Shown here in pieces: positions 12,721 to 51,884 of a stretch of 64,000 nucleotides of DNA (position 1 is its first letter; every line of letters begins with the position of its first letter). A program made the position numbers and the translations under genes. The stretch is from Actinomycetospora soli (GTDB taxonomy: Bacteria; Actinomycetota; Actinomycetes; Mycobacteriales; Pseudonocardiaceae). The notes under the pieces are model-generated. The model was not told where the DNA came from, did not search any database, and saw only the letters and a list, made by a program, of their open reading frames with translations. The stretch spans positions 62,001-126,000 of the forward strand of contig NZ_JAJNDA010000001.1 in NCBI RefSeq assembly GCF_021026295.1, read 5' to 3'.

Positions 12721-13069
12721 GGGTTCCGCGGCCCCTCTCGGTGGCAGGAAAGCGTCGTTGCCTGCATCCAGTGGCAGGAACGCCCCATCGTCGATCAGGC
12801 TCGACGCCCGCGTCGCGCACACCCGCCGGCCCGCGGCCTCGTGCGGGGCCGACGTCGTGAGCGCGTCGCGGCACCACGTGCGCGTGTCGCTCACGACGTC
12901 CCGATCATGCTCGTCCTCGTCCCGCGTCGACGAACGTCGGTCGTCGCGATGTGTGCGTGGCGCGCAGGATTCGCACGGGTCGACGTGCGGGCGGACCACA
13001 GAGGACTCGGCGGGATCGAGACGGGGCGGCCCAGCAAGTCTGCGTCGCCGCTCCGGAGGCCCAGTGCGC
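12721..13069. repeat. Gene-free repeat island: 30-bp unit, inverted repeat and a 52-bp-family copy
   Basis: No gene is supported here. 12741-12786 carries one copy of the 30-bp unit also present at 43653 and 50953. Perfect 13-bp arms, GACGTCGTGAGCG (12851-12863) and CGCTCACGACGTC (12888-12900), form an inverted repeat with a 24-base loop. 12951-12984 resembles the 52-bp repeat of 19465-19870 (TGTGCGTGGCGCGCAGGA). Open frames crossing it change register within the repeats and look spurious. Confidence 0.7.
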
Positions 13070-40085: not shown

Positions 40086-40411
40086 GACGTCCTCCTCCCC
40101 GGGCGCCGTTGCCCGGATCCGCCGCCTCGCGTCCCGGTCCCGGGACGATGTCGGAGCGGCATCAGGATCAACGTCGCGATAGCCGGGGAGCATCCGGGGC
40201 GGGTCCCGTCGGCGGCGTGGCCCCGGTCATGTCCACCGCGGTCGGTCGGACGGATCGGACGGAGCGGAGCGGGCTCGGTCACATTGCGTACAACTAGATG
40301 AAGATGGGACAGTCTCCCCGCTGGTCCCCTTGCCCCCCGAGGAGACCGGTCCGACCCCGTCGCCCCTCCCCCGGGGCGGCGGGGTCACCGCATCCAGGGC
40401 CCCGCCCGGCG
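40086..40411. other. Intergenic region without a supported gene
   Basis: 326 bases between the DUF3099 start and the csoR stop, both on the minus strand. It must hold the DUF3099 promoter and the csoR terminator. A GC-rich inverted stretch near 40369-40386 (CCCCGGGGCGGCGGGG) may be the terminator. No ribosome-site-supported frame was seen. Confidence 0.5.
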
Positions 40412-40705
40412 TCAGGAACGCACGAGCCGCGCGATCGCGGCCGAGGCCTCCGCCACCTTCTCCCTGGCCTCTGCGTCCCCCGCCTTCGCGGCGTCGACGA
40501 CGCAGGAGCCCATGTGCTCCTCGAGCAGCGCGAGCGCCAGGTTCTGCAGCGCCCCGGTGACCGCGCTGACCTGGGTGAGGACGTCGATGCAGTACTTGTC
40601 CTCCTCGACCATGCGTGCGATGCCACGGACCTGGCCCTCGACGCGCTTCAGGCGCCGCAGGTGTGCGTCCTTGTGCGGGGAGTAGCCGTGCTGGTGCTCG
40701 CTCAC
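40412..40705 (-). CDS. csoR: Copper-sensing transcriptional repressor CsoR
   Basis: 97 residues of the DUF156/CsoR fold. The Cu(I) ligand set Cys-His-Cys is present: YCIDVLTQ, then HMGSC about 25 residues later, on the helices following LRRLKRVEGQVRGIARM. That pattern marks a copper sensor, not the RcnR/FrmR types. GTG 40705 lies only 8 bases from a promoter-like TATCAT (40718-40713), so the message is probably leaderless. It is divergent from copA, with two matching boxes between them. Copper binding would release DNA and derepress copA and the genes behind it. Confidence 0.93.
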   Translation of the reverse strand: MSEHQHGYSPHKDAHLRRLKRVEGQVRGIARMVEEDKYCIDVLTQVSAVTGALQNLALALLEEHMGSCVVDAAKAGDAEAREKVAEASAAIARLVRS

Positions 40706-40715
40706 GGGTGCGATG

Positions 40716-40732
40716 ATACCCGGGCGGGGTAT
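40716..40732. promoter_or_regulatory. CsoR operator box 1 (csoR side)
   Basis: ATACCCGGGCGGGGTAT, a pseudo-palindrome with ATACCC...GGGTAT-type ends as in known CsoR sites. It lies 11 bases from the csoR start and overlaps a TATCAT -10-like hexamer on the minus strand. Confidence 0.8.
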
Positions 40733-40742
40733 GTCACCCCGT

Positions 40743-40779
40743 TTGACGCTCATACCCCTGGGGGGTATCACTACGGCCA
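40743..40779 (+). promoter_or_regulatory. copA promoter with CsoR operator box 2, predicted leaderless
   Basis: TTGACG (40743-40748), a 17-base spacer and TATCAC (40766-40771) form a good -35/-10 pair. The CsoR box ATACCCCTGGGGGGTAT (40752-40768) fills the spacer and overlaps the -10. The expected transcription start falls on or next to the copA ATG at 40779. Confidence 0.75.
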
Positions 40780-42998
40780 TGGCGACGACGACGGACCCGC
40801 GCACGAGCACCGAGCTCGCCATCTCCGGCATGACCTGCGCGTCGTGCGCGATGCGGATCGAGAAGAAGCTCAACCGACTCGAGGGCGTCACCGCCAGCGT
40901 CAACTACGCGACCGAGAACGCGCACGTCGAACACCCCCCGGGGGTGTCGACGGCCGCGCTGGTCGAGACGGTCGAGAAGCTCGGTTACGGCGCGGCGCCG
41001 CCCGCCCCGCGCGACGGATCCGCGGAGGGCGGCGACGACGGCGGCGGGGACGGCGGGGACCCCGAGGTCGACGAGCTGCGGCACCGCGTGCTCGTCAGCG
41101 CGGCACTCACGGTGCCCGTCGTCGCGCTCGCGATGGTCCCCGCGTGGCAGTTCGTCGACTGGCAGTGGATCTCCCTGGTCCTCGCCGCCCCCGTCGTCGT
41201 GTGGGGTGGCTGGCGCTTCCACCGGGCCGCCGCGGTCAACCTGCGCCACGGCACGGCGACCATGGACACGCTGATCTCGCTCGGGACGCTCGCCGCGCTG
41301 CTGTGGTCGATCTGGGCCCTGCTGTTCGGCGACGCCGGCATGCCGGGCATGACCCACGCGTTCTCCCTCACCGCCGACCCCGGTGACGCGATCTACCTCG
41401 AGACCGCGGCCGCGGTGACGACGTTCGTGCTCGCCGGACGGTTCTTCGAGGCGCGCGCCAAGCGCCGGGCCGGCGCGGCCCTGCGGGCCCTGCTCGACCT
41501 CGGCGCGAAGGACGTCGCCCTCCTCGTGGACGGGACCGAGACCCGCGTCCCGGTGGAGCGGCTCGTCGTCGGCGACGAGTTCGTGGTCCGGCCCGGCGAG
41601 CGGATCGCGACCGACGGCGTCGTCGTCGCCGGCGTCGGCGCGGTCGACGCGAGCACGGTGACCGGGGAGTCGGTGCCGGTCGAGGTGTCCCCGGGCGCCG
41701 AGGTGGTCGGCGGCTGCGTCGCCGTCGGCTCCCGTCTGGTGGTGCGCGCGACCAGGGTGGGCGCGGACACCCAGCTCGCCCGGATCGCCCGTCGGGTCGC
41801 CGAGGCGCAGAACGGCAAGGCCGACGTCCAGCGGCTGGCCGACCGGGTCTCGGGCGTGTTCGTGCCCGTGGTCGTGCTGGTGGCCGTCGCGACCTTCGTC
41901 GCCTGGCTCGTGCTCGCGGGCGACCTGGGCGGGGCCTTCACCGCGGCCGTCGCCGTCCTCATCATCGCCTGCCCGTGCGCCCTCGGACTGGCCACGCCGA
42001 CCGCGCTGATGGTCGGCACCGGCCGCGGCGCGCAGCTCGGGATCCTGCTGCGTGGCCCGGAGGTGTTGGAGTCCACCCGGCGCGTCGACACCGTGGTCCT
42101 CGACAAGACCGGCACCCTGACGACCGGGGCGATGCGGCTGGTGGGGGACGCTCCGGCGACCGCGCTGCGGTACGCCGCGGCGGTCGAGGACGGGTCGACC
42201 CACCCGATCGCGCGGGCGATCGCGGACGCGGGGCGCTCCCGCGGTCCGCTGCCCGCCGCGACCGACGCACGGACGATCGACGGGCTGGGGGTGAGCGGGA
42301 CGGTGGACGGCGTCGAGGTGCTCGTCGGCCGCCCCACGCTGCTGGCCGAGCACGGGATGCCGCTCTCCCCCGCGCTCACCGCCGACCTCGAGGCCGCGCA
42401 GGCCGACGGGGCCACCGCGGTCGTCGTGGGCTGGGACGGCGAGGCGCGCGCCGTGCTCGCGGTGGCCGACACCGTGCGCGCGACCTCCGCGGACGCCGTG
42501 CGCGCGCTGCGCGACCTCGGGGTGCGCCCCGTGCTGCTGACCGGGGACCACGAGGCCGCGGCGCGGGCGGTCGCCGCGAGCGTGGGCATCGACGAGGTCC
42601 ACGCCGGCGTGCTGCCCGAGGAGAAGGCGGACGTGGTGGCCGCGCTGCAGGCGCAGGGGCACGCGGTCGCGATGGTCGGCGACGGCGTGAACGACGCCGC
42701 CGCCCTCGCCCGCGCCGACCTCGGGCTCGCCATGGGCACCGGCACCGACGTCGCGATCGAGGCGGGCGACGTGACCCTGGTGCGCGAGGACCTGCGTGCG
42801 GTGCCCGAGGCGCTGCGTCTGGCCCGCCGCACCCTCGCCACCATCAGGGGCAACCTGTTCTGGGCCTTCGCCTACAACGTGGCGGCGATCCCGCTGGCGG
42901 CGCTGGGCCTGCTCAACCCGATGGTCGCGGGCGCGGCGATGGCCTTCTCCAGCGTGTTCGTGGTGGGCAACAGCCTGCGCCTGCGACGGTTCCGGTGA
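40779..42998 (+). CDS. copA: Copper-exporting P1B-type ATPase CopA
   Basis: 739 residues. An N-terminal heavy-metal domain with MTCASC, six to eight membrane helices, the CPC metal-site motif in IIACPCALG, phosphorylation motif DKTGT, HP in STHPIAR and GDGVNDA. It pumps Cu(I) out of the cytoplasm. It is divergent from csoR and has a CsoR box in its promoter. Its TGA overlaps the GTG of nuoA (GTGA), so the complex I-like genes behind it are translationally coupled to it, which is unusual. Confidence 0.95.
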   Translation: MATTTDPRTSTELAISGMTCASCAMRIEKKLNRLEGVTASVNYATENAHVEHPPGVSTAALVETVEKLGYGAAPPAPRDGSAEGGDDGGGDGGDPEVDELRHRVLVSAALTVPVVALAMVPAWQFVDWQWISLVLAAPVVVWGGWRFHRAAAVNLRHGTATMDTLISLGTLAALLWSIWALLFGDAGMPGMTHAFSLTADPGDAIYLETAAAVTTFVLAGRFFEARAKRRAGAALRALLDLGAKDVALLVDGTETRVPVERLVVGDEFVVRPGERIATDGVVVAGVGAVDASTVTGESVPVEVSPGAEVVGGCVAVGSRLVVRATRVGADTQLARIARRVAEAQNGKADVQRLADRVSGVFVPVVVLVAVATFVAWLVLAGDLGGAFTAAVAVLIIACPCALGLATPTALMVGTGRGAQLGILLRGPEVLESTRRVDTVVLDKTGTLTTGAMRLVGDAPATALRYAAAVEDGSTHPIARAIADAGRSRGPLPAATDARTIDGLGVSGTVDGVEVLVGRPTLLAEHGMPLSPALTADLEAAQADGATAVVVGWDGEARAVLAVADTVRATSADAVRALRDLGVRPVLLTGDHEAAARAVAASVGIDEVHAGVLPEEKADVVAALQAQGHAVAMVGDGVNDAAALARADLGLAMGTGTDVAIEAGDVTLVREDLRAVPEALRLARRTLATIRGNLFWAFAYNVAAIPLAALGLLNPMVAGAAMAFSSVFVVGNSLRLRRFR

Positions 42999-43354
42999 CG
43001 CCGTTCGTGGCGCTCGCCGTGGTCGGCGGGGTCGCCCTGCTGGGCGTGGGCCTCGTCGTCGCCGTGTCGTGGGTGGCGCGGGCCGCGACCGGGACGCGCC
43101 GACCGCTCGTGGCCGCGCCGCACGCCGGCGGGATGCCCGTGGTGGAGCACGCGGTCTCGCGGTGGCACGTCCGGTGGACGACCCTCGCGCTGGTCTTCCT
43201 GGCCTTCGACATGGAGATGCTCTTCATGTACCCGTGGACGCTCGTCGTGGCGCGGTCCGGGACGGGCGCCGCGGTCGAGATGTTCGTCTTCCTCGGGATC
43301 CTGCTCGTGGGCGTCGGCTACGCGTGGCGGGAGGGCGCCTTCCGGTGGTCCTGA
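42995..43354 (+). CDS. nuoA: Complex I-like membrane subunit NuoA
   Basis: 119 residues, three membrane helices. The conserved acidic motif of NuoA is kept in LAFDMEMLFMYPW, and SRWHVRWTTLALVF precedes it as in genuine NuoA. GTG 42995 overlaps the copA stop. It heads a run of complex I membrane subunits. In full complex I it sits next to NuoH and NuoK near the quinone pocket; here the neighbouring Fe-S subunits are missing. Confidence 0.88.
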   Translation: MTPFVALAVVGGVALLGVGLVVAVSWVARAATGTRRPLVAAPHAGGMPVVEHAVSRWHVRWTTLALVFLAFDMEMLFMYPWTLVVARSGTGAAVEMFVFLGILLVGVGYAWREGAFRWS

Positions 43355-44382
43355 GGTCCGTGCTCGCCCGCCGCCCGCACGTCCTGACGATCACGCCTGC
43401 GACCGTGGACCTCGGCCTCCGGCTCGCCGTCGAGGCCGAGCTCGCCCGCCGTCGCTGGCCGGAGGCGTCGGCGCCCGTCGACGCCGACGTCGCGCTCGTG
43501 CTCGGCACGCCGGGCCCGCGCCTCGCGGCGGTGGTCCGGTCGGTGTGGGCGACGGTGCCGGCGCCGCGGGTGCTCGTGGCGGTCCCGACGGCGGGCGTGC
43601 TCCGGTCGGCGCTCGACGACGCGGCGGCGGGGCTGCGGTCTTCCCGGCCTCGTGGCAGCAGAGCGTCGTCACTGTCACTGGACGCCAGTAACGACGCTTT
43701 GCTGCCAGATGGGGATTGGGCCGACCACCGAGAGGTGGACGTGCCTCCGGAGCCGCAGATGGCCGACCTCGCCTTCTACGACCGCGACGGCCTCGCCCTG
43801 GACGCCCTGCACGTCGCGCTCGGGCCGGTCCTCCCCCACTGGCCGGCGGGTCTCGTGGCGCACGTGACGCTGGCCGGCGACCTCGTGACCGACGCGCACG
43901 CCGAGGTGCTCGACGTGCCGGCGAGCGTCGGCCCGGGCAGCCGCGGCCGGTCGCCGCTCGGGCCCGACCGCACCCGCCTCGACGTCCTCACCCGGGTGCT
44001 CGGCCTCCTCGGCGCGGACCACCTCGCCGCCCGGGCCCGCCACCTCCGCGACCACGACCCCGAGCCCGGCGAACTGACCGCCTTCGGCCGCCGCCTGCAC
44101 CGGAACCGCCCCGTGCGGTGGGCGGTGCGGGACGTCCCGCTCGTCGGCGGCGCGGTGGAGGAACGGACGCTGGCCGACCGCGTCGCGCACCTCGCCGGTG
44201 CCCTCGGCGGCAGCCTCCCGCCCCCGGTGCGTCCGACCGCGGAGAAGGCCGTGCAGGCCATGGTCGGCCTCGAGCTCGGGGCGGCCCGGCTCGTCCTCGC
44301 CGCACTCGACCCCGACACCACCCTGGGCGCTGGCCCGGTCGCGGCCTTCGCGCCGCCGGAGGTGACCCATCACCACCACTGA
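43345..44382 (+). CDS. Cysteine-free protein resembling a degenerate NuoB-NuoD fusion
   Basis: 345 residues from GTG 43345 (GAGGG about 9 bases upstream), overlapping nuoA by ten bases. Residues ~15-95 follow NuoB: DADVALVLGTPGPRLAAVVR and VPAPRVLVAVPTAG align with the ADVMIVAGT and PEPRWVISMGSC region. Every N2 cluster cysteine is lost and the whole protein has no Cys. From ~135 it resembles NuoD: ALGPVLPHWPAGLVAHVTL and DLVTDAHAEVLD match PQHPS-type and V-D-A-P-x-I-G-Y segments. RRLHRNRPVRWAVRDV recalls the RRRT-G-V region. A 30-bp repeat copy joins the halves (LSLDASNDALLP). It probably forms a redox-dead cap on the membrane arm. Confidence 0.75.
   Translation: MVLRSVLARRPHVLTITPATVDLGLRLAVEAELARRRWPEASAPVDADVALVLGTPGPRLAAVVRSVWATVPAPRVLVAVPTAGVLRSALDDAAAGLRSSRPRGSRASSLSLDASNDALLPDGDWADHREVDVPPEPQMADLAFYDRDGLALDALHVALGPVLPHWPAGLVAHVTLAGDLVTDAHAEVLDVPASVGPGSRGRSPLGPDRTRLDVLTRVLGLLGADHLAARARHLRDHDPEPGELTAFGRRLHRNRPVRWAVRDVPLVGGAVEERTLADRVAHLAGALGGSLPPPVRPTAEKAVQAMVGLELGAARLVLAALDPDTTLGAGPVAAFAPPEVTHHHH
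43653..43708 (+). repeat. Palindromic 30-bp-family repeat inside the NuoB/NuoD-like gene
   Basis: Arms TGGCAGCAGAGCGTCGT (43653-43669) and ACGACGCTTTGCTGCCA (43691-43707) pair with one mismatch. It is in frame and encodes LSLDASNDALLP. The same unit lies in intergenic DNA at 12741 and 50953 on the other strand. Confidence 0.8.
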
Positions 44383-44395
44383 GCTGGTCGTCCTC

Positions 44396-45289
44396 GTGGT
44401 CCTCGCGCCCGGGCTCGTCCTCGTCGCCGGGCTCGCGGCGGGCCTGAAGGCCGTGACCGCGGGCGAGTCGCCCGCCACCCCCGCCGTCGAGACCCTCCGC
44501 CTGCTCGGCAAGCAACGGCGACGCACCCCGGACGACGACCCGGGGCTCGCGCGGGTCGGGCTGGCCCTGCTGCCGGTCGCCGCGGTCCTCGCGCTCGCCG
44601 TCGTCCCGCTCGGCGACCGGGCGCCGGTCGACCTCGACGTCGGGGTCGTCTGGTTCAACGCGATGGAGGTGGTGGCCTGGTTCGCCGTGTGGGTCGCGGG
44701 CTGGGGACCGAACGCGGTGACGAGCCTGGCCGGCGGCTACCGCGTCCTGCCGCTGGGCCTCGCCTACGAGGTCCCGCACATGCTCGCGATCATCACCCCG
44801 GCGATCGCGGCCGGTTCGCTGTCACCCGTGGCGATCGCCGCCGCCCAGCAGGACCTCTGGTACGCCGTGTGGATGCCGGCCGCGTTCGTGCTCTACCTCG
44901 TCTCCGTGGCCGCGATGGCCTTCTGGGGCCCGTTCGCGGCGCCGCTGGGCCGCGACCTCGCCGGGGGCGCCGCCGCCGAGCACGCCGGGCTCGACCGGCT
45001 GCTGCTGCTCGCCGGGCGCTGGATGCTCCTGACGGCGGCCGCGGCGATGGCCGTGCCGCTGTTCCTGGGCGGGGGCGCCCCGCCGCCGATCACCGGTCCG
45101 GATCCCTTCCCCGGCCTGCCCGCGCTGTGGTTCGGGGTGAAGCTCGCCGTCGTGCTCGGGCTCCTACTGGCCCTGCGCCGCGCCGTGCCGATGCTGCGGA
45201 TGGCCCGGTTCGCGACCCTCGCGTGGGTCGTCCTCGTCCCCCTCGCGGTCGCGCAGGCGCTCGTCGTCACGCTCGTGGTGCTCGCGTGA
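44396..45289 (+). CDS. nuoH: Complex I-like membrane subunit NuoH (reduced)
   Basis: 297 residues from GTG 44396, about eight membrane helices. GLAYEVPHMLAIITPAIAAGSLS matches the NuoH motif YEVPLGLSLLGV-x-LAGSLS. The acidic quinone-site loop (E-S-ELVAGYNVEYSG-type) is replaced by GGAAAEHAGLDRLLLLAGRW, so coupling to quinone is doubtful. The start is odd: a perfect GGAGGTGA (44358-44365) is followed 6 bases after GGAGG by ATC (44369), which would give an N-terminus (M)TTTELVVL. GTG 44396 has no ribosome site. Coordinates here use the GTG. Confidence 0.82.
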   Translation: MVLAPGLVLVAGLAAGLKAVTAGESPATPAVETLRLLGKQRRRTPDDDPGLARVGLALLPVAAVLALAVVPLGDRAPVDLDVGVVWFNAMEVVAWFAVWVAGWGPNAVTSLAGGYRVLPLGLAYEVPHMLAIITPAIAAGSLSPVAIAAAQQDLWYAVWMPAAFVLYLVSVAAMAFWGPFAAPLGRDLAGGAAAEHAGLDRLLLLAGRWMLLTAAAAMAVPLFLGGGAPPPITGPDPFPGLPALWFGVKLAVVLGLLLALRRAVPMLRMARFATLAWVVLVPLAVAQALVVTLVVLA

Positions 45290-45780
45290 CCGCCCTGGTC
45301 GCCGTCGTCGGCGCCCTCGGGGCCGTCGCCGTGGTCACCGGGCTGCTCGTCTTCACGGTCAACTCGATGGCCCGCGCGACGTTCCTGCTGCTCGCGTCGT
45401 TCGTCGCCGTCGGCGCGGTGCTCATCGGGTTCGGCCTGGGCTACCTCGGGACCGTGGTGATCCTGATGATGACGATCGAGATGATGATCATGGTCGTCTT
45501 CATGGTGATGCTGATGATGAACCCGGCCGGTCTGATGCCGATGACGATGGTCCACAACCGCCGGGGCTCCTGGGCGATCGCCCTCGTCGTCTTCGGCCTC
45601 CTCACCACGGGGGTCTGGCTCGTGCCGTTCCCGACGCCGGGTCCTGCCGCGGTCGGGGATCCGACCCTCGCCCTCGGCGACGCGCTCATGGGCGGGCAGA
45701 TGCTGACGATGATGACGCTCGGGCTCGCGCTGCTGGCCACGATCGTCGGGACGGTCGCGGTGGCGGTGAGCCGACGGTGA
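45286..45780 (+). CDS. nuoJ: Complex I-like membrane subunit NuoJ
   Basis: 164 residues with five hydrophobic segments. ARATFLLLASFVAVGAVLIGFG and the Met-rich TVVILMMTIEMMIMVVFMVML match the NuoJ helices TM2-TM3. GTG 45286 overlaps the nuoH stop (GTGA). It packs between NuoA, NuoK and NuoH in complex I. The unusually Met-rich helix may only reflect composition, but in a copper-regulated operon it is worth noting. Confidence 0.88.
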   Translation: MTALVAVVGALGAVAVVTGLLVFTVNSMARATFLLLASFVAVGAVLIGFGLGYLGTVVILMMTIEMMIMVVFMVMLMMNPAGLMPMTMVHNRRGSWAIALVVFGLLTTGVWLVPFPTPGPAAVGDPTLALGDALMGGQMLTMMTLGLALLATIVGTVAVAVSRR

Positions 45781-46094
45781 GCACGACGGAGCTCGTCCTG
45801 CGCCTCGCCCTCACCGCGGCCGCCGCCCTGATCGCCACCGGGCTGTACGGCGCGCTCTCCCAGCAGTCGGTCGTGATGATCATGATGGGCCTGGAGCTCG
45901 TGGTGAACGGCCTGCTCCTCGCCGCCGGGGCGTTCTGGTGGGCCGGCGGCGCCCCGGTGGTCGCAAGCGTGCTGATCGTCGTGCTCGTGACCGTCATGGC
46001 GGTCGAGATGGCGATGGGCTTCGCGGTGGCGCTCGCGCTCTACCGGGCCCGCCAGGTCGACCTCACCGACGACGCCGCGGAGCTCGCCGGATGA
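45777..46094 (+). CDS. nuoK: Complex I-like membrane subunit NuoK
   Basis: 105 residues, three membrane helices. Both functional glutamates of NuoK are kept: MIMMGLELVVNG (TM2) and VMAVEMAMGFAVAL (TM3). This means the proton-path residues of this subunit survive although the catalytic arm is gone. GTG 45777 overlaps the nuoJ stop (GTGA). Confidence 0.92.
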   Translation: MSTTELVLRLALTAAAALIATGLYGALSQQSVVMIMMGLELVVNGLLLAAGAFWWAGGAPVVASVLIVVLVTVMAVEMAMGFAVALALYRARQVDLTDDAAELAG

Positions 46095-47968
46095 CGCTGC
46101 TGCTGGCGCTGCTCCTCGCCGTCCCCGTGCTCGCGGGTCTCGTGCTGCTCGCCGCGTTCCCCCGCGCGACCGGGGCACCCGTCGTCGCGGCCGGGGGCGT
46201 CGCCGCGGTGGTCACCTCCGTGCTGGCGGTCGAGCTGGCGACCGCCCGACCGGTCGTCGGCGTCCCGGTGTTCGTCGTCCCCCTCGTCCCCGGGATCACC
46301 TTCACCTACGCCGTCGACGGCCTCGGCGCCGTGCTCGCGGTGACGGTCGCCGTCGTCGGGGCGCTGGTGCTGCTCGCGGCCGCCGGGGAGGAGCGCCTGC
46401 GGCGCGGCCGCTTCGTCGGCGCCGTACTGGTGTTCCTCGGCGCCATGCTGGCCACCGTCACCGCCGCAACGCTGCCCGCCCTGCTCGCGCCGTGGGAGGT
46501 CATGGGGGCCGCGAGCTGGGCGCTGATCGCCTTCGACCGCCGCGACCCCGCGGTCGGCCCCGCCGCCGGACGGGCCTTCCTGACGACGAGGTCGGCCGAC
46601 GTCGGCCTCTACGTCGCCACCGGCGCCGCGCTCGCCGCGGGCGTGCCGGGTCTGGCGTTCGCCGAGCTCGCGGCGGCCGACCCCGCCTGGACCTCGCTGA
46701 TCGCGGCCGGGCTCGTCGTCGCTGCCCTCGGCAAGTCGGCGCAGCTCCCGTTCTCCGGCTGGCTCTCCGGCGCCATGATCGGGCCGAGCCCGGTCTCGGC
46801 CCTGCTGCACTCGGCGACCATGGTCGCGGCCGGGGCCGTGCTGCTCCTGCGCTCCGCGCCGCTGCTGGCCACGACGGGCTGGGCGGCCACGACCGTCGCG
46901 TGGGCCGGGGCGCTCACCGCGGTGGTGCTGGGCCTGGTCGCGTGCTGCCAGCGGGACCTCAAGCAGCTCCTCGCCGCGTCGACGTGCTCGCAGGTCGGGC
47001 TCATGGTGCTGGGCGCCGGGGTCGGCGCGTCGGCCGGCGCGGCCGGGCTGCTCGTGGCCCACGCGGCCGTCAAGGCGCTGCTCTTCCTCGCCGCCGGCGG
47101 CTGGCTCGCCGTGCTGCGGACCCGGGCCCTGCCCGCCCTGCGCGGCGCGGCCCGGCGCCACCCGGCGGTGGGGGTGCCCTTCACCGTCGGCGCGGTCGCG
47201 CTCGCCGGGGTCCCGCCGCTGTCGCTCTGGTGGACCAAGGACGCCGTGCTCACCGGCATCCCGTTCGGCGAGGGCGGGCTGGCCGTCGCCGCGCTCCTCG
47301 CGACGGTGCTCTCCGCGGTCTCGGCCACCCGCGCCGCCTGGTTCGTGTGGCGGCCGGTGCGCTCGCCGTCGATCCGTCGCGGGGCGGAGCAGCCCGGCCG
47401 CGCCCGCCGGCACGTGCCGGTGGCCATCACCGCCGCGCTCGCGGTGCTCGCCGTGCCGGCCGCCGCGGTCGGCGCCGTCGGGGTGGCCGTCGGGCTCGTG
47501 CCCGGCGCCGACCCGGGCGAGCTCCTGACGACGGGCGTGGTCGTGCTCTTCGCCGCCGCGGCCACGTGGGCGCTGCACAGCCGCCCGGTCCGGCTCCGGT
47601 CGTCGCTCTGGGGTCGGGCGGCCGCCCGCGTGCGGGGCTGGCTGGGGCTCGAGGCGCTGACCGGACCCGTCGTCGGGACGCCCGTGCTGGCGCTCGCCGG
47701 GCTGCTCGACCGGGCGGACGCCGCGCTCGGCGCGGCGGTGCCGCGGGCGGCCGCGACGGTCCCCGTCCTCGCGCGCGGGGTGGAGCGCCACGGCGAGCGT
47801 CGGATCGCCGCCGCGGTCGACCGGTTCGCCACCGGCGTGCGCCGGCTCGGCGACCTCGCCCGCCGCCCGCAGACGGGACGGCAGCACCAGTACTACGCAC
47901 AGGGGGTGATCGCGATCGGCGTGCTGGCGGCCGTGGCGGTGGTCGTGGTGTCGGCGGGGGTGCGCTGA
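46091..47968 (+). CDS. nuoL: Complex I-like antiporter subunit NuoL
   Basis: 625 residues, about 16 helices including the long C-terminal extension. Ion-path residues are intact: Glu in LLAPWEVMG (TM5), Lys in ALGKSAQLPFSGWL (TM7), His in ALLHSATM, Lys in CCQRDLKQLLAAST (TM8) and Lys in WWTKDAVL (TM12). ATG 46091 overlaps the nuoK stop (ATGA). It is Mrp-antiporter-related and is predicted to move protons or sodium. Confidence 0.93.
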   Translation: MTLLLALLLAVPVLAGLVLLAAFPRATGAPVVAAGGVAAVVTSVLAVELATARPVVGVPVFVVPLVPGITFTYAVDGLGAVLAVTVAVVGALVLLAAAGEERLRRGRFVGAVLVFLGAMLATVTAATLPALLAPWEVMGAASWALIAFDRRDPAVGPAAGRAFLTTRSADVGLYVATGAALAAGVPGLAFAELAAADPAWTSLIAAGLVVAALGKSAQLPFSGWLSGAMIGPSPVSALLHSATMVAAGAVLLLRSAPLLATTGWAATTVAWAGALTAVVLGLVACCQRDLKQLLAASTCSQVGLMVLGAGVGASAGAAGLLVAHAAVKALLFLAAGGWLAVLRTRALPALRGAARRHPAVGVPFTVGAVALAGVPPLSLWWTKDAVLTGIPFGEGGLAVAALLATVLSAVSATRAAWFVWRPVRSPSIRRGAEQPGRARRHVPVAITAALAVLAVPAAAVGAVGVAVGLVPGADPGELLTTGVVVLFAAAATWALHSRPVRLRSSLWGRAAARVRGWLGLEALTGPVVGTPVLALAGLLDRADAALGAAVPRAAATVPVLARGVERHGERRIAAAVDRFATGVRRLGDLARRPQTGRQHQYYAQGVIAIGVLAAVAVVVVSAGVR

Positions 47969-49512
47969 TGCTCACCGCGATGTGGGTCGCGCCGCTGGTG
48001 GTGGCGCTGCTGCTGGTGCCGGTGACGCGCCGCGAGGTGCTCCTCGGGGCGTGGACGGCGCTGGCCCTGCTCGAGGTGGTGCTCGCGGCCCTCGCGTGGT
48101 CCGGCGTCGGCGCCCCCGGCTACGCGCACGAGGTCGCGGTGCCGTGGATCCCGGCGTTCGGGGTCGGTTACCACGTCGGGCTGGACGGGCTGTCCGCGCC
48201 GCTCGTGGCGATGACGGCGCTCGTGTTCCTGGCGGTCGCGCTCTACTCGATGCGCGGCGACCCGGCGCAGGACGGCGACACCGACCCGCGCCGCACCCGC
48301 GGGTACGTCCTGCTGTTCCTGGGGCTCGAGGCGGTGTCGATCGGGCTCTTCGTCGCCCTCGACCTCGTGCTGTTCTTCGTGTTCTTCGACGTGTCGATCG
48401 TGCTCATGTACTTCGTCATCGCGGGGTGGGGCAGCGGCGCGCGGGCCCGCAGCGCGTTGCAGTTCTTCCTGTACACGTTCATCGGCTCGCTGGTGATGCT
48501 GCTCGGCTTCCTGTCGCTGGCCGTCGCAGCGCCCCGACCGACCTTCGACATCCCGACCCTCGCCGCCCTCGACCCCCTCGCCGGCCGCGGCGTGGCCGGG
48601 GTCCTCACGGTCGCCGCGATCGGGATCGGCCTCGCGATCAAGACGCCGGTGTGGCCGGTGCACACCTGGCTGCCGCCCGCGCACACCGACGCCCCCGCCG
48701 CCGGGTCGGCGGTGCTGGCCGCCGTCCTGCTGAAGATGGGGACCTACGGCTTCGTCCGGATCGCACTGCCGCTGCTGCCCGGGCCGTGGCGGTCGGTCGC
48801 GCTGGTCGCGGTGGTGCTCGGGGTGGTGTCGGTGCTGTGGGGCGCGCTCGTGGCGCTCGCCCAGCGCGACCTCAAGCGGATGGTCGCCTACACCTCGGTG
48901 AACCACATGGGCTACGTCCTGCTCGCCGTCGGCGCCGCCGGCTTCCTGACGGCGGGTCCGGAGGCCCGGGGCCTGGCGGTCACCGGTGCGACGGTGCAGA
49001 TGGTGAGCCACGGCCTGATCACGGGGGCGTTGTTCCTCCTGGCCGGCGTGCTGCGGGAGCGGGGCGGGACCTCGGAGATCGCGGCCTGGTCGGGCGTCGC
49101 CGGACCCATGCCGCGGTTCTCCTGGACGTTCGCCGTGGCCGCGTTCGCGTCGCTGGGCCTGCCCGGCCTGTCCGGGTTCGTCGCCGAGTTCTCGATCCTC
49201 GCCGGGTCGCTCCCGGCCGTGCCGGTGGCCGCCGCGGTGGCCGCCCTCGGGCTGGCGGTGACGGCGGCCCTGTTCGTGCGGGCGCTGCAGTCGATGCTGC
49301 TGGGCGACCGGCACCTGCCGCGCGCGGCCGAGCGCGTGCCCCCGCGGACCGGGGCCTTCCGGCGGCCGGCGTCACCGGACCTGCGCATCACCCAGACCGC
49401 GGCCGTCGGGCTGCTGCTCGCGGCCTCGCTGGCGATCGGGCTGGCGCCCGGGCTCGTCACGGCGACGATCGCACCCGCCGCGGCCACCGTGGTGGACCTG
49501 GTGTCCCGGTGA
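47968..49512 (+). CDS. nuoM: Complex I-like antiporter subunit NuoM
   Basis: 514 residues, about 14 helices. AIKTPVWPVHTWLPPAHTDAP, LLKMGTYG and AQRDLKRMVAYTSVNHMG keep the channel lysines and histidines. The TM5 glutamate of NuoM (WEMMLVPMYF type) is replaced by Asp in FFDVSIVLMYF. ATG 47968 overlaps the nuoL stop (TGATG). It is predicted to be an ion-translocating antiporter-like subunit. Confidence 0.93.
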   Translation: MLTAMWVAPLVVALLLVPVTRREVLLGAWTALALLEVVLAALAWSGVGAPGYAHEVAVPWIPAFGVGYHVGLDGLSAPLVAMTALVFLAVALYSMRGDPAQDGDTDPRRTRGYVLLFLGLEAVSIGLFVALDLVLFFVFFDVSIVLMYFVIAGWGSGARARSALQFFLYTFIGSLVMLLGFLSLAVAAPRPTFDIPTLAALDPLAGRGVAGVLTVAAIGIGLAIKTPVWPVHTWLPPAHTDAPAAGSAVLAAVLLKMGTYGFVRIALPLLPGPWRSVALVAVVLGVVSVLWGALVALAQRDLKRMVAYTSVNHMGYVLLAVGAAGFLTAGPEARGLAVTGATVQMVSHGLITGALFLLAGVLRERGGTSEIAAWSGVAGPMPRFSWTFAVAAFASLGLPGLSGFVAEFSILAGSLPAVPVAAAVAALGLAVTAALFVRALQSMLLGDRHLPRAAERVPPRTGAFRRPASPDLRITQTAAVGLLLAASLAIGLAPGLVTATIAPAAATVVDLVSR

Positions 49513-50942
49513 CCGCCGACGTCCTGACGCTCGCCCCGGAGGCCCTCGTCGCGCTGGGCGCCGTGCTGGGGCTGGCCGTCGGGACGTGGCTGCCGCCGGG
49601 GCGGGAGGGGGCGGTCCGCGGTCTCGGCGTGCTGTTCGCCGTGGCCGCGGCGGTGGTCGCGGTGGTGGGTCCGCGCGGCCCCGCGTTCGACGGCACGTAC
49701 CTGGTGGACACGGCGACCACGGTGGTGCGCGTCGTGGTGGCGGGCGCCGTGGTGGTGACGCTGGTGCTGGCCGGTGACCGCCCGGACGTCAGCGGTGGGC
49801 CACGGCTGACGTCCGGCGGCAGCGGTGGGCCACGGCTGACGGGCGACGAGGCCGAGCCGACGACCGCCCGGGTCGACACCGCGTTCGCCGTCCTGCTCCA
49901 GCTCTCGGCCGTCGGCGCGATGCTGCTCGGCGGGGCGACCGACCTGCTGCTGCTCGCCGCCGCGGTCCTGCTCGCCGGGCTCCCCCTGGCCGCCCTGGCC
50001 GGGCTCGGACGCGACGGCCGGGCCACCGAGGCGGCGCTCAAGTACTTCCTGAGCTCGGCGCTGTTCGGCCTGCTCGCCCTCACCGGCACGACGCTGCTGC
50101 TCGGCCTGGCCGGCGCCACGGCGTACCCCGCGCTGGCGGGCCTGACCGGCCCCGCACCCGCCGTCGGGATGATCCTGGTCCTGGCCGGGCTCCTCATGGC
50201 GGCCGGTGCCGTGCCGGCCCACTTCTGGGTGCCCGACGCCGTGGACGGGACCTCGCCGGTGACCGGCGCGGTGCTCACCACGACCGCCAAGATCGGCGCG
50301 CTCGTGGCCGTCTGGCGGCTGGCCCTCGCCGTCCCGGCCGTGCCGACGCCGCTGCTCGTCGCGATCCTCGCCGTCGCGTCGATGACGCTGGGGAACCTCG
50401 CCGCGTTCGCCCAGACCTCGCTGCGCCGCCTGCTGGCGTACTCGACGGTCAGCCAGGTCGGCTACCTGCTCGTGCCGGTCGCCCTCGCGCGGGACACCGG
50501 GCTGGCGCTGCCGACCCTGCTCGGCTACCTCGCCGCCTACACCGTCACCAACCTCGCCGTGTTCGCGGTCCTCGCCGCCCGCCCGCACGCCCTCGAGATC
50601 GGCGAGCAGCGCGGCCTCGCCCGGCGCCACCCCGGCCTGGCCGTGGCGCTGGCGGTCGGGCTGCTCGGGCTCGTCGGGACCCCGCCGACGATCGTGTTCG
50701 CGGGCAAGCTCGGCGTGCTCACCGCGGCCCTCGACGGCGGTGCGGCGTGGCTCGGCGTCGTCGTGGTGGTCAACTCGATCGCGAGCCTCGTGTACTACCT
50801 GCGCTGGATCGCGCCCGTCTTCTCCGCCGGCGACCCGGTGCTGCGCGACCCGGTGGCGCCGCGGGCACGGGTGGTGGCGCTCGGGTTGGCGGTGCTGTCG
50901 GTGGTGGGGAGCGTGGCGCTCGTGCTCGTCCCCACCCTCTGA
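49509..50942 (+). CDS. nuoN: Complex I-like antiporter subunit NuoN (partly degenerate)
   Basis: 477 residues, about 13 helices. The TM8 Lys is kept (LTTTAKIGA) and AQTSLRRLLAYSTVSQVGYL is conserved. The TM5 Glu position reads Leu (AAVLLAGLPLAAL). The TM7 Lys of KLGVVPFHLWTPD reads Ala (AAGAVPAHFWVPD). An in-frame 30-bp tandem duplication at 49791-49841 inserts SGGPRLT twice in a loop. GTG 49509 overlaps the nuoM stop. It is the last gene of the operon. Confidence 0.9.
   Translation: MTADVLTLAPEALVALGAVLGLAVGTWLPPGREGAVRGLGVLFAVAAAVVAVVGPRGPAFDGTYLVDTATTVVRVVVAGAVVVTLVLAGDRPDVSGGPRLTSGGSGGPRLTGDEAEPTTARVDTAFAVLLQLSAVGAMLLGGATDLLLLAAAVLLAGLPLAALAGLGRDGRATEAALKYFLSSALFGLLALTGTTLLLGLAGATAYPALAGLTGPAPAVGMILVLAGLLMAAGAVPAHFWVPDAVDGTSPVTGAVLTTTAKIGALVAVWRLALAVPAVPTPLLVAILAVASMTLGNLAAFAQTSLRRLLAYSTVSQVGYLLVPVALARDTGLALPTLLGYLAAYTVTNLAVFAVLAARPHALEIGEQRGLARRHPGLAVALAVGLLGLVGTPPTIVFAGKLGVLTAALDGGAAWLGVVVVVNSIASLVYYLRWIAPVFSAGDPVLRDPVAPRARVVALGLAVLSVVGSVALVLVPTL
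49791..49841 (+). repeat. In-frame tandem repeat in nuoN
   Basis: A 21-bp stretch beginning AGCGGTGGGCCACGGC (49791-49811) recurs identically at 49821-49841, a period of 30 bases, encoding SGGPRLTSGGSGGPRLTG. It expands an extramembrane loop. Confidence 0.85.
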
Positions 50943-50952
50943 TCCCCTCCAC

Positions 50953-50996
50953 CTGGCAGCGAAGCGTCGTTGCTTGCATCCAGTGGCAGGAAAGCC
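50953..50996. repeat. Dispersed 30-bp-family repeat copy after nuoN
   Basis: TGGCAGCGAAGCGTCGTTGC followed by TTGCATCCAGTGGCAGGAAA, nearly the same as 12742-12781. On the minus strand it reads as FLPLDASNDASLP. It sits between nuoN and the next start with no T-run, so a terminator role is unproven. Confidence 0.8.
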
Positions 50997-51011
50997 ACAT
51001 CGTCACCGCTC

Positions 51012-51884
51012 GTGGACGACCATCTCGCCCTGAACCGCGCCAACTGGGACCAGCGCGCGGCCCTGCACGTCACCAGCCCCGACTACGCGGTGGACCGGCT
51101 CGTCGCCGACCCGACGGCGATCTCCGACGTCGTCGCCTTCGACCGCCCGCGGCTCGGCGACCTCACGGGTCTGCGCGGCGTGCACCTCCAGTGCCACATC
51201 GGCACCGACACGCTCTCGCTCGCCCGGCTCGGGGCGGAGATGGTCGGGGTGGATCTCTCCCCCGTGTCCGTCGACCACGCCCGGCGCACGGCCGAGCGCG
51301 CCGGCGTCCCGATCGAATACCTGGTCAGCGACGTGTACGCCGCCCCCGAGGCGCTGTCCGGCCGGACCTTCGACCTCGTCTACACCGGGATCGGAGCGCT
51401 GAACTGGCTGCCGAGCATCGAGCGCTGGGCCGACGTGGTCGTCGCCGTCCTCGCGCCCGGCGGCCGGCTCCTCCTGCGCGAGATGCACCCGGCGCTCGGC
51501 GCGATCGACGAGACCGTGCCGGGGCAGCTCGTCGTCGGCTACCCGTGGTTCGAGACGGTCGAGCCGCTGGTGTTCGACGACGCCACCACCTACGTGGCGG
51601 CCGAGGGCACTCTCACGGCCACCACCACGCACGAGTGGGCGCACGGCCTCGGCGAGCTGATGACCGCCCTGCTCGCCCGCGGACTGCGCGTCACCGCCTT
51701 CGAGGAGCACCGCAGCGTCCCGTGGGAGGCCCTGCCGGGGCGGATGCGCCGGGACGACGACGGCGAGTTCCGGCTCGTCGAGCACCCGGAGCGGCTCCCG
51801 CTCAGCTACACCCTGCAGGCCGTGGCCCCGGGACCTGCCAGTCGCGGGCCGGTGCCAGGCGCCCCCGGCCCGGCGTCGGGCTAG
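51012..51884 (+). CDS. Class I SAM-dependent methyltransferase
   Basis: 290 residues from GTG 51012. The N-terminal ALNRANWDQRAALH is typical, motif I is degenerate (VHLQCHIGTDTLSLARLG) as in many actinobacterial members of this group, and VGVDLSPVSVDHAR is motif II. TGIGALNWLPSIERWADVV follows. The acceptor is unknown. The repeat copy just upstream forms an artificial N-terminal extension that is not used. A new transcription unit probably starts here. Confidence 0.85.
   Translation: MDDHLALNRANWDQRAALHVTSPDYAVDRLVADPTAISDVVAFDRPRLGDLTGLRGVHLQCHIGTDTLSLARLGAEMVGVDLSPVSVDHARRTAERAGVPIEYLVSDVYAAPEALSGRTFDLVYTGIGALNWLPSIERWADVVVAVLAPGGRLLLREMHPALGAIDETVPGQLVVGYPWFETVEPLVFDDATTYVAAEGTLTATTTHEWAHGLGELMTALLARGLRVTAFEEHRSVPWEALPGRMRRDDDGEFRLVEHPERLPLSYTLQAVAPGPASRGPVPGAPGPASG

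Follow-up and report, generated by a model that had tools for sequence, protein, structure and literature searches.

A copper-linked operon of Actinomycetospora soli may encode a copper-handling machine derived from complex I

We describe an operon of Actinomycetospora soli in which the copper pump gene copA runs directly into eight genes resembling the membrane arm of respiratory complex I (nuoA, BD, nuoH, nuoJ, nuoK, nuoL, nuoM and nuoN, where BD is a fused relic of NuoB and NuoD). It lies at positions 40412-50942 of a stretch of 64,000 nucleotides (nt), hereafter the window, which corresponds to 62001-126000 of contig 11 in a 6.5 Mb genome. Comparison of its gene set, redox loss, copper neighbourhood, methionine signature and metal-binding relic points to copper handling by a machine that arose from complex I. 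The unit very probably serves copper in some way, and it almost certainly does no NADH or quinone chemistry. Our tentative proposal is a Cu(I) exporter driven by protons and produced alongside CopA in response to copper sensing by CsoR. An earlier note on this DNA had described a copper-regulated unit in which CopA is joined to a complex I-like membrane arm that has no redox subunits, a description that our comparisons support.

Organization of the operon

The features, in window coordinates, are as follows.

40412-40705, minus strand: csoR, copper-sensing repressor (Pfam PF02583, E 3.7e-29), with Cys39, His64 and Cys68 as the C-H-C set
40717-40731, no strand: CsoR-type box TACCCGGGCGGGGTA, csoR-proximal, from pattern search; part of inverted repeat I2
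40753-40767, no strand: CsoR-type box TACCCCTGGGGGGTA, copA-proximal, from pattern search; in inverted repeats I2 and I4
40779-42998, plus strand: copA, copper-type P1B ATPase with N-terminal HMA (CXXC) and CPC motif (Pfam; TIGR01511)
42995-43354, plus strand: nuoA-like, with FDMEM motif and family-specific M75 and M78 (NCBIfam NuoA, below cut-off)
43345-44382, plus strand: BD, fused NuoB/NuoD relic, no cysteine, C-terminal HHHH (PDB profile match to NuoB)
44396-45289, plus strand: nuoH-like (PF00146, E 1.9e-39; E. coli NuoH PDB profile, E 2.8e-45)
45286-45780, plus strand: nuoJ-like, with 13 family-invariant methionines, Glu65 and His90 (PF00499, E 1.1e-9)
45777-46094, plus strand: nuoK-like, with family-specific M34, M36, M74 and M78 (PF00420, E 4.3e-10)
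46091-47968, plus strand: nuoL-like antiporter subunit, E136, K215, K328 and K383 retained (PF00361)
47968-49512, plus strand: nuoM-like antiporter subunit, D141 (canonical Glu), K225, K256 and E407 retained (PF00361)
49509-50942, plus strand: nuoN-like antiporter subunit, E174, K178, K261 and K400 retained (PF00361)

The divergence of csoR and copA and the CsoR-type boxes between them, noted earlier, agree with the coordinates and the pattern search: two palindromic boxes lie within the divergent gap at the promoters, and the C-H-C copper-ligand motif is present in CsoR. The chained overlaps from copA to nuoN were likewise confirmed from the sequence, being 4 nt (GTGA) at copA/nuoA, 10 nt at nuoA/BD, 4 nt at nuoH/nuoJ, nuoJ/nuoK, nuoK/nuoL and nuoM/nuoN, and 1 nt at nuoL/nuoM, with nuoH starting after a gap of 13 nt from BD. 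Pfam names CsoR, a P-type ATPase with HMA, NuoH, NuoJ, NuoK and three NuoL/M/N-type proteins, the input being open frames (copA from 40713, nuoJ from 44689, nuoL from 45938, nuoM from 46492 and nuoN from 47982); nuoA was not submitted separately to Pfam and is named from the NCBIfam matches below cut-off. The copA product scores 518 bits against TIGR01511 (copper-translocating ATPase; cut-off 397) in NCBIfam. The overlaps and boxes together lead us to infer that copA-nuoA-BD-HJKLMN is probably transcribed as a single unit. A scan of 40200-51200 yielded no promoter or terminator where shuffled sequences lead one to expect none and one, respectively; it has no power here, and an internal promoter would be compatible with its null result.

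Two details of the coding sequences may be added. The frame of nuoH opens behind a TGA at 44363 and has no ATG, GTG or TTG near the BD stop, its first GTG (44396) already falling inside membrane helix 1; nuoH may use an unusual start codon. A direct repeat beginning GTCAGCGGTGGGCCACGGCTGACG lies at 49785-49845 within the nuoN coding sequence.

As had been observed, the unit contains no nuoE, nuoF, nuoG or nuoI and no true nuoB, nuoC or nuoD. The earlier note had asked whether the genome holds a separate full nuo operon, and it does: 14 consecutive genes fitting nuoA-N stand on contig C16, B, D, E, F and I being named by NCBIfam. Canonical NuoD is also present elsewhere in 40 of 40 further genomes carrying the partial unit, so the partial unit is not the respiratory complex. 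The reading of the unit as respiratory complex I was rejected on these two grounds. Beside the full operon, at about 43-58 kilobases (kb) of contig C16, are extra NuoL/M/N-type genes in two opposite sets, probably of Mrp type.

An eight-gene family across Actinomycetota and proteobacterial plasmids

In a scan of 84,980 named species 360 relatives were found, of which the best 80 were kept, and a search of the order contributed 60 strongly matching regions, further strong ones lower in the list being left out. The collection comprised 159 loci (the window and L034-L191); after removal of L111 (no nuoA) and of 19 duplicates, defined by identity over the 300 nt after nuoA, 139 loci were left, among which near-duplicates remain. 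All eight genes occur in 132 of the 139, and in the remaining seven the stretch breaks off within the unit. A canonical redox subunit (any of B, C, D, E, F, G or I) was matched in a single locus of the 139, and weakly (L159, NuoG query, 50 bits).

Beyond these loci, BD-like genes were found in 18 of 61 relatives in a search with a single protein. A BD alignment matched 206 of 397 genomes of the order at E<=0.001, many of them weakly (E about 1e-4 to 1e-5, positions 45-83); we take the weak matches to be probable canonical NuoB, a hint of descent. At E<=1e-20 a NuoJ profile matched 34 of 396 genomes of the phylum, 28 of the 34 outside the class. Gene order is identical, as far as it is listed, in 18 distant actinobacterial loci; gene calls for these, for the genus layouts and for the flank clusters given below were made with a simple script based on codon bias. 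Among plasmid records there are 37 relatives of NuoM, from Actinomycetota and Proteobacteria. The unit is no peculiarity of one operon; it belongs to an eight-gene family that spans Actinomycetota and proteobacterial plasmids. One plasmid, that of Sulfitobacter SK025 (L282), has an orphan nuoM-nuoN pair beside transposition genes, and its record contains a second NuoM place.

The family has been met before as a partial NDH-1 operon of the same gene order and content, and the Salinispora loci L165 and L172 belong to it. As far as the excerpts of these papers go, the Salinispora copies were read as a marine adaptation (Penn and Jensen 2012, PMC3314556), Kocuria was found to carry a partial NDH-1 (Sun 2018, PMC6002675), and a Streptomyces cluster ordered nuoA, hypothetical protein, H, J, K, L, M, N was read as an osmotic adaptation (Almeida et al. 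2019, PMC6676996), also in one carrier, SM254, that came from copper-rich mine fluids. In those excerpts the reading is sodium/proton or osmotic, with no copper neighbours, no methionine signature and no identity for the 'hypothetical protein'; the word 'copper' has 0 occurrences in the main text of PMC3314556. The partial cluster itself has been published since 2012, as marine-adaptation genes (PMC3314556), which corrects the earlier note on this point. A search of the open-licence literature likewise found no link between the cluster and copper, which is not proof of novelty.

According to the marine or osmotic explanation, the partial NDH-1 pumps Na+ or H+ and aids life in seawater or at high osmolarity. 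The same nuoA-hypothetical-HJKLMN layout was proposed to do so in Salinispora, Kocuria and Streptomyces, again as far as the excerpts go (PMC3314556, PMC6002675, PMC6676996), and the Salinispora loci have no upstream copper gene. We consider it quite improbable in view of the copper context described below (21/40 against 0/40), the NuoJ methionines carried by the Salinispora copies themselves (L165), and the mine-fluid origin of the SM254 carrier (PMC6676996, in the excerpt). Named carriers also include many genera besides those whose habitat we take to be marine.

Copper genes beside the unit

Copper families (copA, csoR, copZ, DUF305, DUF326 and multicopper oxidase profiles) were counted up to 8 kb upstream of nuoA. 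In 40 genomes with both nuo sets, a copper gene stood upstream of the partial-unit nuoA in 21, as against none of 40 for the canonical nuoA. Over the 139 loci at least one family was found upstream in 65 and at least two in 54, csoR and copA occurring together in 32; by family, copA was present in 44, csoR in 36 and multicopper oxidase in 4. A loose CsoR box was found at nuoA, within 430 nt, in 23 of the 139 loci; among 695 random pieces taken from those loci, 9 had one. The strict box is found in 22 of 139, and 7 of these 22 (four of them Arthrobacter) have no csoR within the 8 kb. At the nuoA of partial units a CsoR-type box was present in 5 of 44, versus 0 of 40 canonical ones.

Within the genus there are two layouts. 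In the first (seven genomes: the window and L034-L039), csoR is divergent from copA-nuoA, copA and nuoA overlap by 4 nt, and there are one or two boxes; in the second (L040-L045), copA-X-copZ-csoR is divergent from nuoA. These layouts are separate lineages in the NuoM tree, the window clade standing on a long branch next to Pseudonocardia hydrocarbonoxydans and the second layout among Pseudonocardia loci. Over the whole tree copper linkage changes 24 times, and at least 16 of the changes are forced by well-supported branches. The earlier note had set conservation of the linkage in relatives as a test, and the outcome is positive, both for the genus and for the wider set (65/139 against 0/40 canonical). 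The copA-nuoA overlap itself holds in the seven genomes but not elsewhere, where other copper layouts occur and roughly one locus in two lacks an upstream copper gene. A chance placement of csoR-copA beside nuoA was rejected on the canonical-nuoA control and the independent layouts.

Flanking genes were also clustered with no prior choice of family, the clusters being named by Pfam or sequence (BNR, MFS and ArsR by eye). Across the 139 loci the eight largest were P-type ATPase (50), DUF305 (39), CsoR (35), an ArsR-type regulator (32), CopZ-like HMA (27), BNR-like (19), MFS transporter (17) and the X gene (17), followed by DUF326 (17) and, further down the list, multicopper oxidase (11). The X gene encodes 300 amino acids and has no Pfam match; many loci with copper linkage (L040-L045, L080, L116, L141) have it in the interval separating copZ from copA. 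In Geodermatophilaceae-like loci (L055-L082 and others), DUF305, DUF326, the ArsR-type regulator and a methionine-rich small membrane protein recur as a group upstream and are possible partners.

Among the 18 distant actinobacterial loci, 13 have a copper gene. Of the 37 plasmid records 17 were opened and their neighbours read from annotation, which was not readable in two (Vreelandella and Methylobacterium aquaticum). Copper-type neighbours were seen in nine (Arthrobacter, Pseudonocardia, Roseivivax, Halomonas, Rubrobacter, Acuticoccus, Nitratireductor, Roseovarius and Curtobacterium), DUF305 alone in two (Methylobacterium fujisawaense and Rhodopseudomonas), and no copper-type neighbour in four (Sulfitobacter SK025, Paracoccus, Sulfitobacter OXR-159 and Rhodococcus). 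The Rubrobacter plasmid reads copA-csoR-copper protein-nuoA. In Roseivivax a CueR-CopA-CopZ-multicopper oxidase series lies downstream of nuoN, and in Acuticoccus the unit is surrounded by CueR, a P-type ATPase and a copper oxidase; in these two alphaproteobacterial plasmids CueR takes the place of CsoR.

Two alternatives bear on this neighbourhood. The unit could be a passenger, a partial nuo set that drifted into copper islands and has no copper function, as its plasmid location and the nearby transposases in some records would allow. This reading is disfavoured, and we hold it the least probable of all, given the differing copper regulators and layouts across phyla, the invariant methionines and the metal-binding domain within BD. 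Alternatively, the unit could import copper or hand it over, supplying Cu(I) to outer cuproenzymes such as the adjoining multicopper oxidases; multicopper oxidase, cupredoxin and DUF305 genes do adjoin it in several loci. CsoR and CopA belong to copper export, and their linkage to the unit is the commoner one by the upstream counts above (copA 44, csoR 36, multicopper oxidase 4 of 139), which makes import or hand-over doubtful as an account of the family.

A methionine signature in the membrane hub

NuoJ carries methionine at 13 positions (28, 61, 62, 66, 69, 73, 77, 78, 86, 88, 135, 139 and 142 in window numbering). All 13 are present in 135 of 136 members, whether copper-linked (64 of 64) or unlinked (71 of 72), whereas each of 21 canonical NuoJ from the same genomes has 0 of the 13. 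Glu65 and His90 are found in 136 of 136. In 28 diverse members, 12 of the 32 invariant NuoJ columns are methionine. Much of this set persists at greater distance. The nine proteobacterial plasmid copies all keep 28, 61, 69, 73, 77, 86, 88 and 139, and seven of nine keep 62, 66, 78, E65 and H90, with 135 in three and 142 in none. All 18 distant actinobacterial copies keep 28, 61, 62, 66, 69, 73, 77, 86, 88 and 139 together with E65 and H90, while 78 is kept in 15, 135 in 10 and 142 in 2. Eight methionines are thus retained by every copy of both groups (9/9 and 18/18).

The neighbouring subunits show the same pattern. NuoK M34, M36, M74 and M78 have a frequency of 1.00 in 133 members and 0.00 in 21 canonical sequences, and NuoA M75 and M78 stand at 1.00 in 138 members against 0.25 and 0.00 in 40 canonical ones; the family methionines of NuoH are M129 and M160. 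On alignment to solved complexes, NuoJ 61-78 falls on helix 3 and the NuoK methionines lie beside the canonical-aligned acids. NuoJ helix 3 and the NuoK acids constitute the core of complex I's coupling path. Since the NuoJ methionines are not needed for the helix yet are invariant at depth, they are suggestive of ligands, and the natural metals of thioethers are Cu(I) or Ag(I). An AlphaFold model of NuoJ gave helices only and was not used, and the NuoD-bearing cluster of Micromonosporaceae-like genomes, intended as a methionine control, had no NuoJ in the stretches examined.

The proton-path lysines and acids of NuoL, NuoM and NuoN align with the canonical ones and show conservation of at least 97%, the first acid of NuoM being Asp for Glu; for the invariants of L, M, N and H the canonical side of the comparison is one sequence each from one genome. 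These residues also suit a copper-responsive proton or cation pump or antiporter in which copper turns the unit on or is detected at the methionine and histidine sites, only H+ (or Na+/K+) is moved, and CopA alone exports the copper, the purpose being to restore membrane energetics or pH under copper stress. Such a device would fit the copper-linked regulation and neighbours, and since no energy input for uphill pumping is visible, a downhill antiporter would be natural. The conserved methionine line through NuoJ, NuoK and NuoA lies in the membrane hub, not in soluble loops alone, and a sensor would not require 13 invariant methionines; on balance we think this explanation unlikely, if less so than import.

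BD, a relic of NuoB and NuoD

In a PDB profile search, a segment of 39-48 residues in the N-terminal part of BD aligned with NuoB of solved complexes (best E 4.6e-7); the match falls between the NuoB cysteine motifs, which BD lacks. Window BD has no cysteine at all. Among 66 aligned BD sequences the fullest cysteine column counts 31, its consensus cysteine standing opposite an alanine of NuoB and not a cluster ligand. A relic without these cysteines cannot carry iron-sulphur (Fe-S) clusters. Window BD has no Pfam match (over-long frame) and no NCBIfam match (correct frame). Its AlphaFold model has a predicted local distance difference test (pLDDT) score of 85, and Foldseek lists NuoB-type chains for it, none at E<=0.001 (best 0.0035).

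Distant members are more telling. Of seven distant BD proteins, all contain NuoD PF00346 and six have the heavy-metal-binding domain (HMBD) PF19335 (CPMHP...CPKCGM) between the halves, and BLAST of distant members gives similarity to both NuoB and NuoD. The relationship of the gene to NuoB and NuoD, proposed earlier, thus stands and is refined to a fused NuoB-linker-NuoD relic with a heavy-metal-binding domain in distant members. NCBI annotates BD as 'heavy metal-binding domain-containing protein' in 5 of 17 plasmid records. The BD linker in Actinomycetia is rich in histidine and methionine, and per 90 amino acids it has 6.9 histidines in copper-linked loci and 4.2 in those not linked, against 1.2 in L/M/N.

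The Methylobacterium (L281) and Rhodopseudomonas (L289) plasmids have no BD, and their NuoJ bears a large loop rich in histidine and methionine; here a different subunit has apparently taken over the metal-binding stretch. A histidine-rich NuoJ tail is seen in Roseivivax and some distant actinobacterial copies. Metal-binding stretches thus turn up at several places of one complex, and the sites concerned (BD linker, NuoJ loop and tail) presumably all face the cytoplasm.

Loss of the redox parts and gain of metal sites in the same place could also point to a copper redox engine, in which copper redox cycling on the relic and methionines drives proton pumping in place of Fe-S clusters and quinone. 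Methionine sites favour Cu(I) only, and no electron-partner gene recurs among the top neighbour clusters, so that we regard such an engine as very improbable, more so than an osmotic role.

A short palindromic repeat occurs at 43640-43715 (in frame, within the BD linker), at 50954-50971 (after nuoN) and at 12742-12759, with 62 matches in its own genome when both strands of one site are counted separately. The copy in the linker looks like an element of the repetitive extragenic palindrome (REP) or miniature inverted-repeat transposable element (MITE) kind that invaded it. Similar SLLSxDxSNDA peptides are found in the BD linker of other clade members.

Discussion

We propose a Cu(I) exporter because proton residues are retained and redox parts lost, while the hub has gained soft-metal ligands and the stub bears metal-binding stretches. 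It is hypothesized that excess Cu(I) would release CsoR from its boxes, that copA-nuoABDHJKLMN would then be transcribed as one unit, and that ATP-driven CopA would be co-produced with a second copper-handling membrane machine. In the membrane arm NuoL, NuoM and NuoN would carry protons, and NuoA, NuoH, NuoJ and NuoK would form the hub by the cytoplasmic side. The BD relic, which in most lineages has either a stretch rich in histidine and methionine or the heavy-metal-binding domain, would accept Cu(I) from CopZ or glutathione at its cytoplasmic face, and a methionine-lined Cu(I) path through NuoA/J/K/H would replace the electron and quinone path, with inward protons via L/M/N driving Cu(I) outward. 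The NuoB/NuoD stub would in this way have become a copper-receiving cap, and the NuoA/H/J/K hub a methionine-lined copper channel. Copper regulation of the nuo genes, metal binding and proton coupling are what we infer; we are least sure that copper crosses the membrane and that it does so outward. The possible role as an ion pump or antiporter given in the earlier note may, through the methionine signature, be sharpened to a copper transporter.

Several observations weigh against this proposal. The 139 loci are a non-random sample, made up of the best 80 of 360 and hand-picked strong matches, and in 74 of them the 8 kb upstream contain no member of the six copper families. These 74 include an entire branch of 17 Actinomadura/Actinocorallia/Spongiactinospora loci and both Salinispora loci; distance, regulons elsewhere or another role could account for such loci. 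The copper profiles were built from the loci being counted, the canonical-nuoA control using the same profiles, and further P1B ATPases may be picked up by the copA profile. In NuoJ, M135 and M142 are not conserved beyond Actinomycetia, and the seven methionines of helix 3 do not form a significant helical face (R 0.45, P 0.16); five methionines chosen post hoc do (P 0.004), a result that is not relied on. In BD of the window itself the D half goes unrecognized: against a single canonical NuoD there was no recognized match (probability 0.2), and against NuoB a weak one. The BD linker of the window clade has lost its histidine-rich stretch, the protein ending in HHHH. Finally, the genome holds further CopA-type ATPases and four CsoR-family genes, so the operon at 40412-50942 is not its sole copper defence. 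At 50772-52617 of contig C20 another csoR-family gene is followed by a CopA-like frame of 374 amino acids that covers query residues 10-357 only and is perhaps truncated.

In comparison with known systems, the unit shares with respiratory complex I homologous NuoA, H, J, K, L, M and N and the proton-path residues, but it lacks E, F, G, C and I, has NuoB and NuoD fused without Fe-S cysteines, and has methionine-rich NuoA/J/K. Mrp antiporters resemble it in having NuoL/M/N- and NuoK-type subunits without redox parts. It differs from them by the addition of NuoH, NuoA and the peripheral relic and by the absence of MrpE, F, G or a fused MrpA, its eight overlapping genes leaving no room for MrpE, F and G. 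The NiFe-binding cysteines of group 4 energy-converting hydrogenases are absent, window BD being free of cysteine. The usual regulator, boxes and pump of CsoR-CopA-CopZ efflux operons are present, with the chaperone elsewhere, but here a complex I-derived membrane machine is added. As to P1B ATPases, RND Cus, CTR and CopCD, the nuo-like subunits match complex I families only, in Pfam. With transporters compared via Pfam only, we would put at a little under an even chance the view that the unit represents a new class, a seven- to eight-subunit Cu(I) translocase driven by the proton-motive force, derived from complex I through the loss of every redox centre and found in Actinomycetota and on Proteobacteria plasmids.

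Conclusions

Relatives of complex I couple proton movement to electron transfer or, in Mrp, to cations. If the unit moves copper, a transition metal would be added to what the complex I fold can transport, and bacterial copper efflux would have a third energy source beside ATP (CopA) and that of RND pumps. It would also provide a complex I that is redox-free by nature, where metal binding instead of quinone chemistry could be used to probe the disputed coupling of hub and antiporters. A cluster explained in print as an osmotic adaptation would gain a new reading, and several 'NADH dehydrogenase' annotations on plasmids may mark copper islands.

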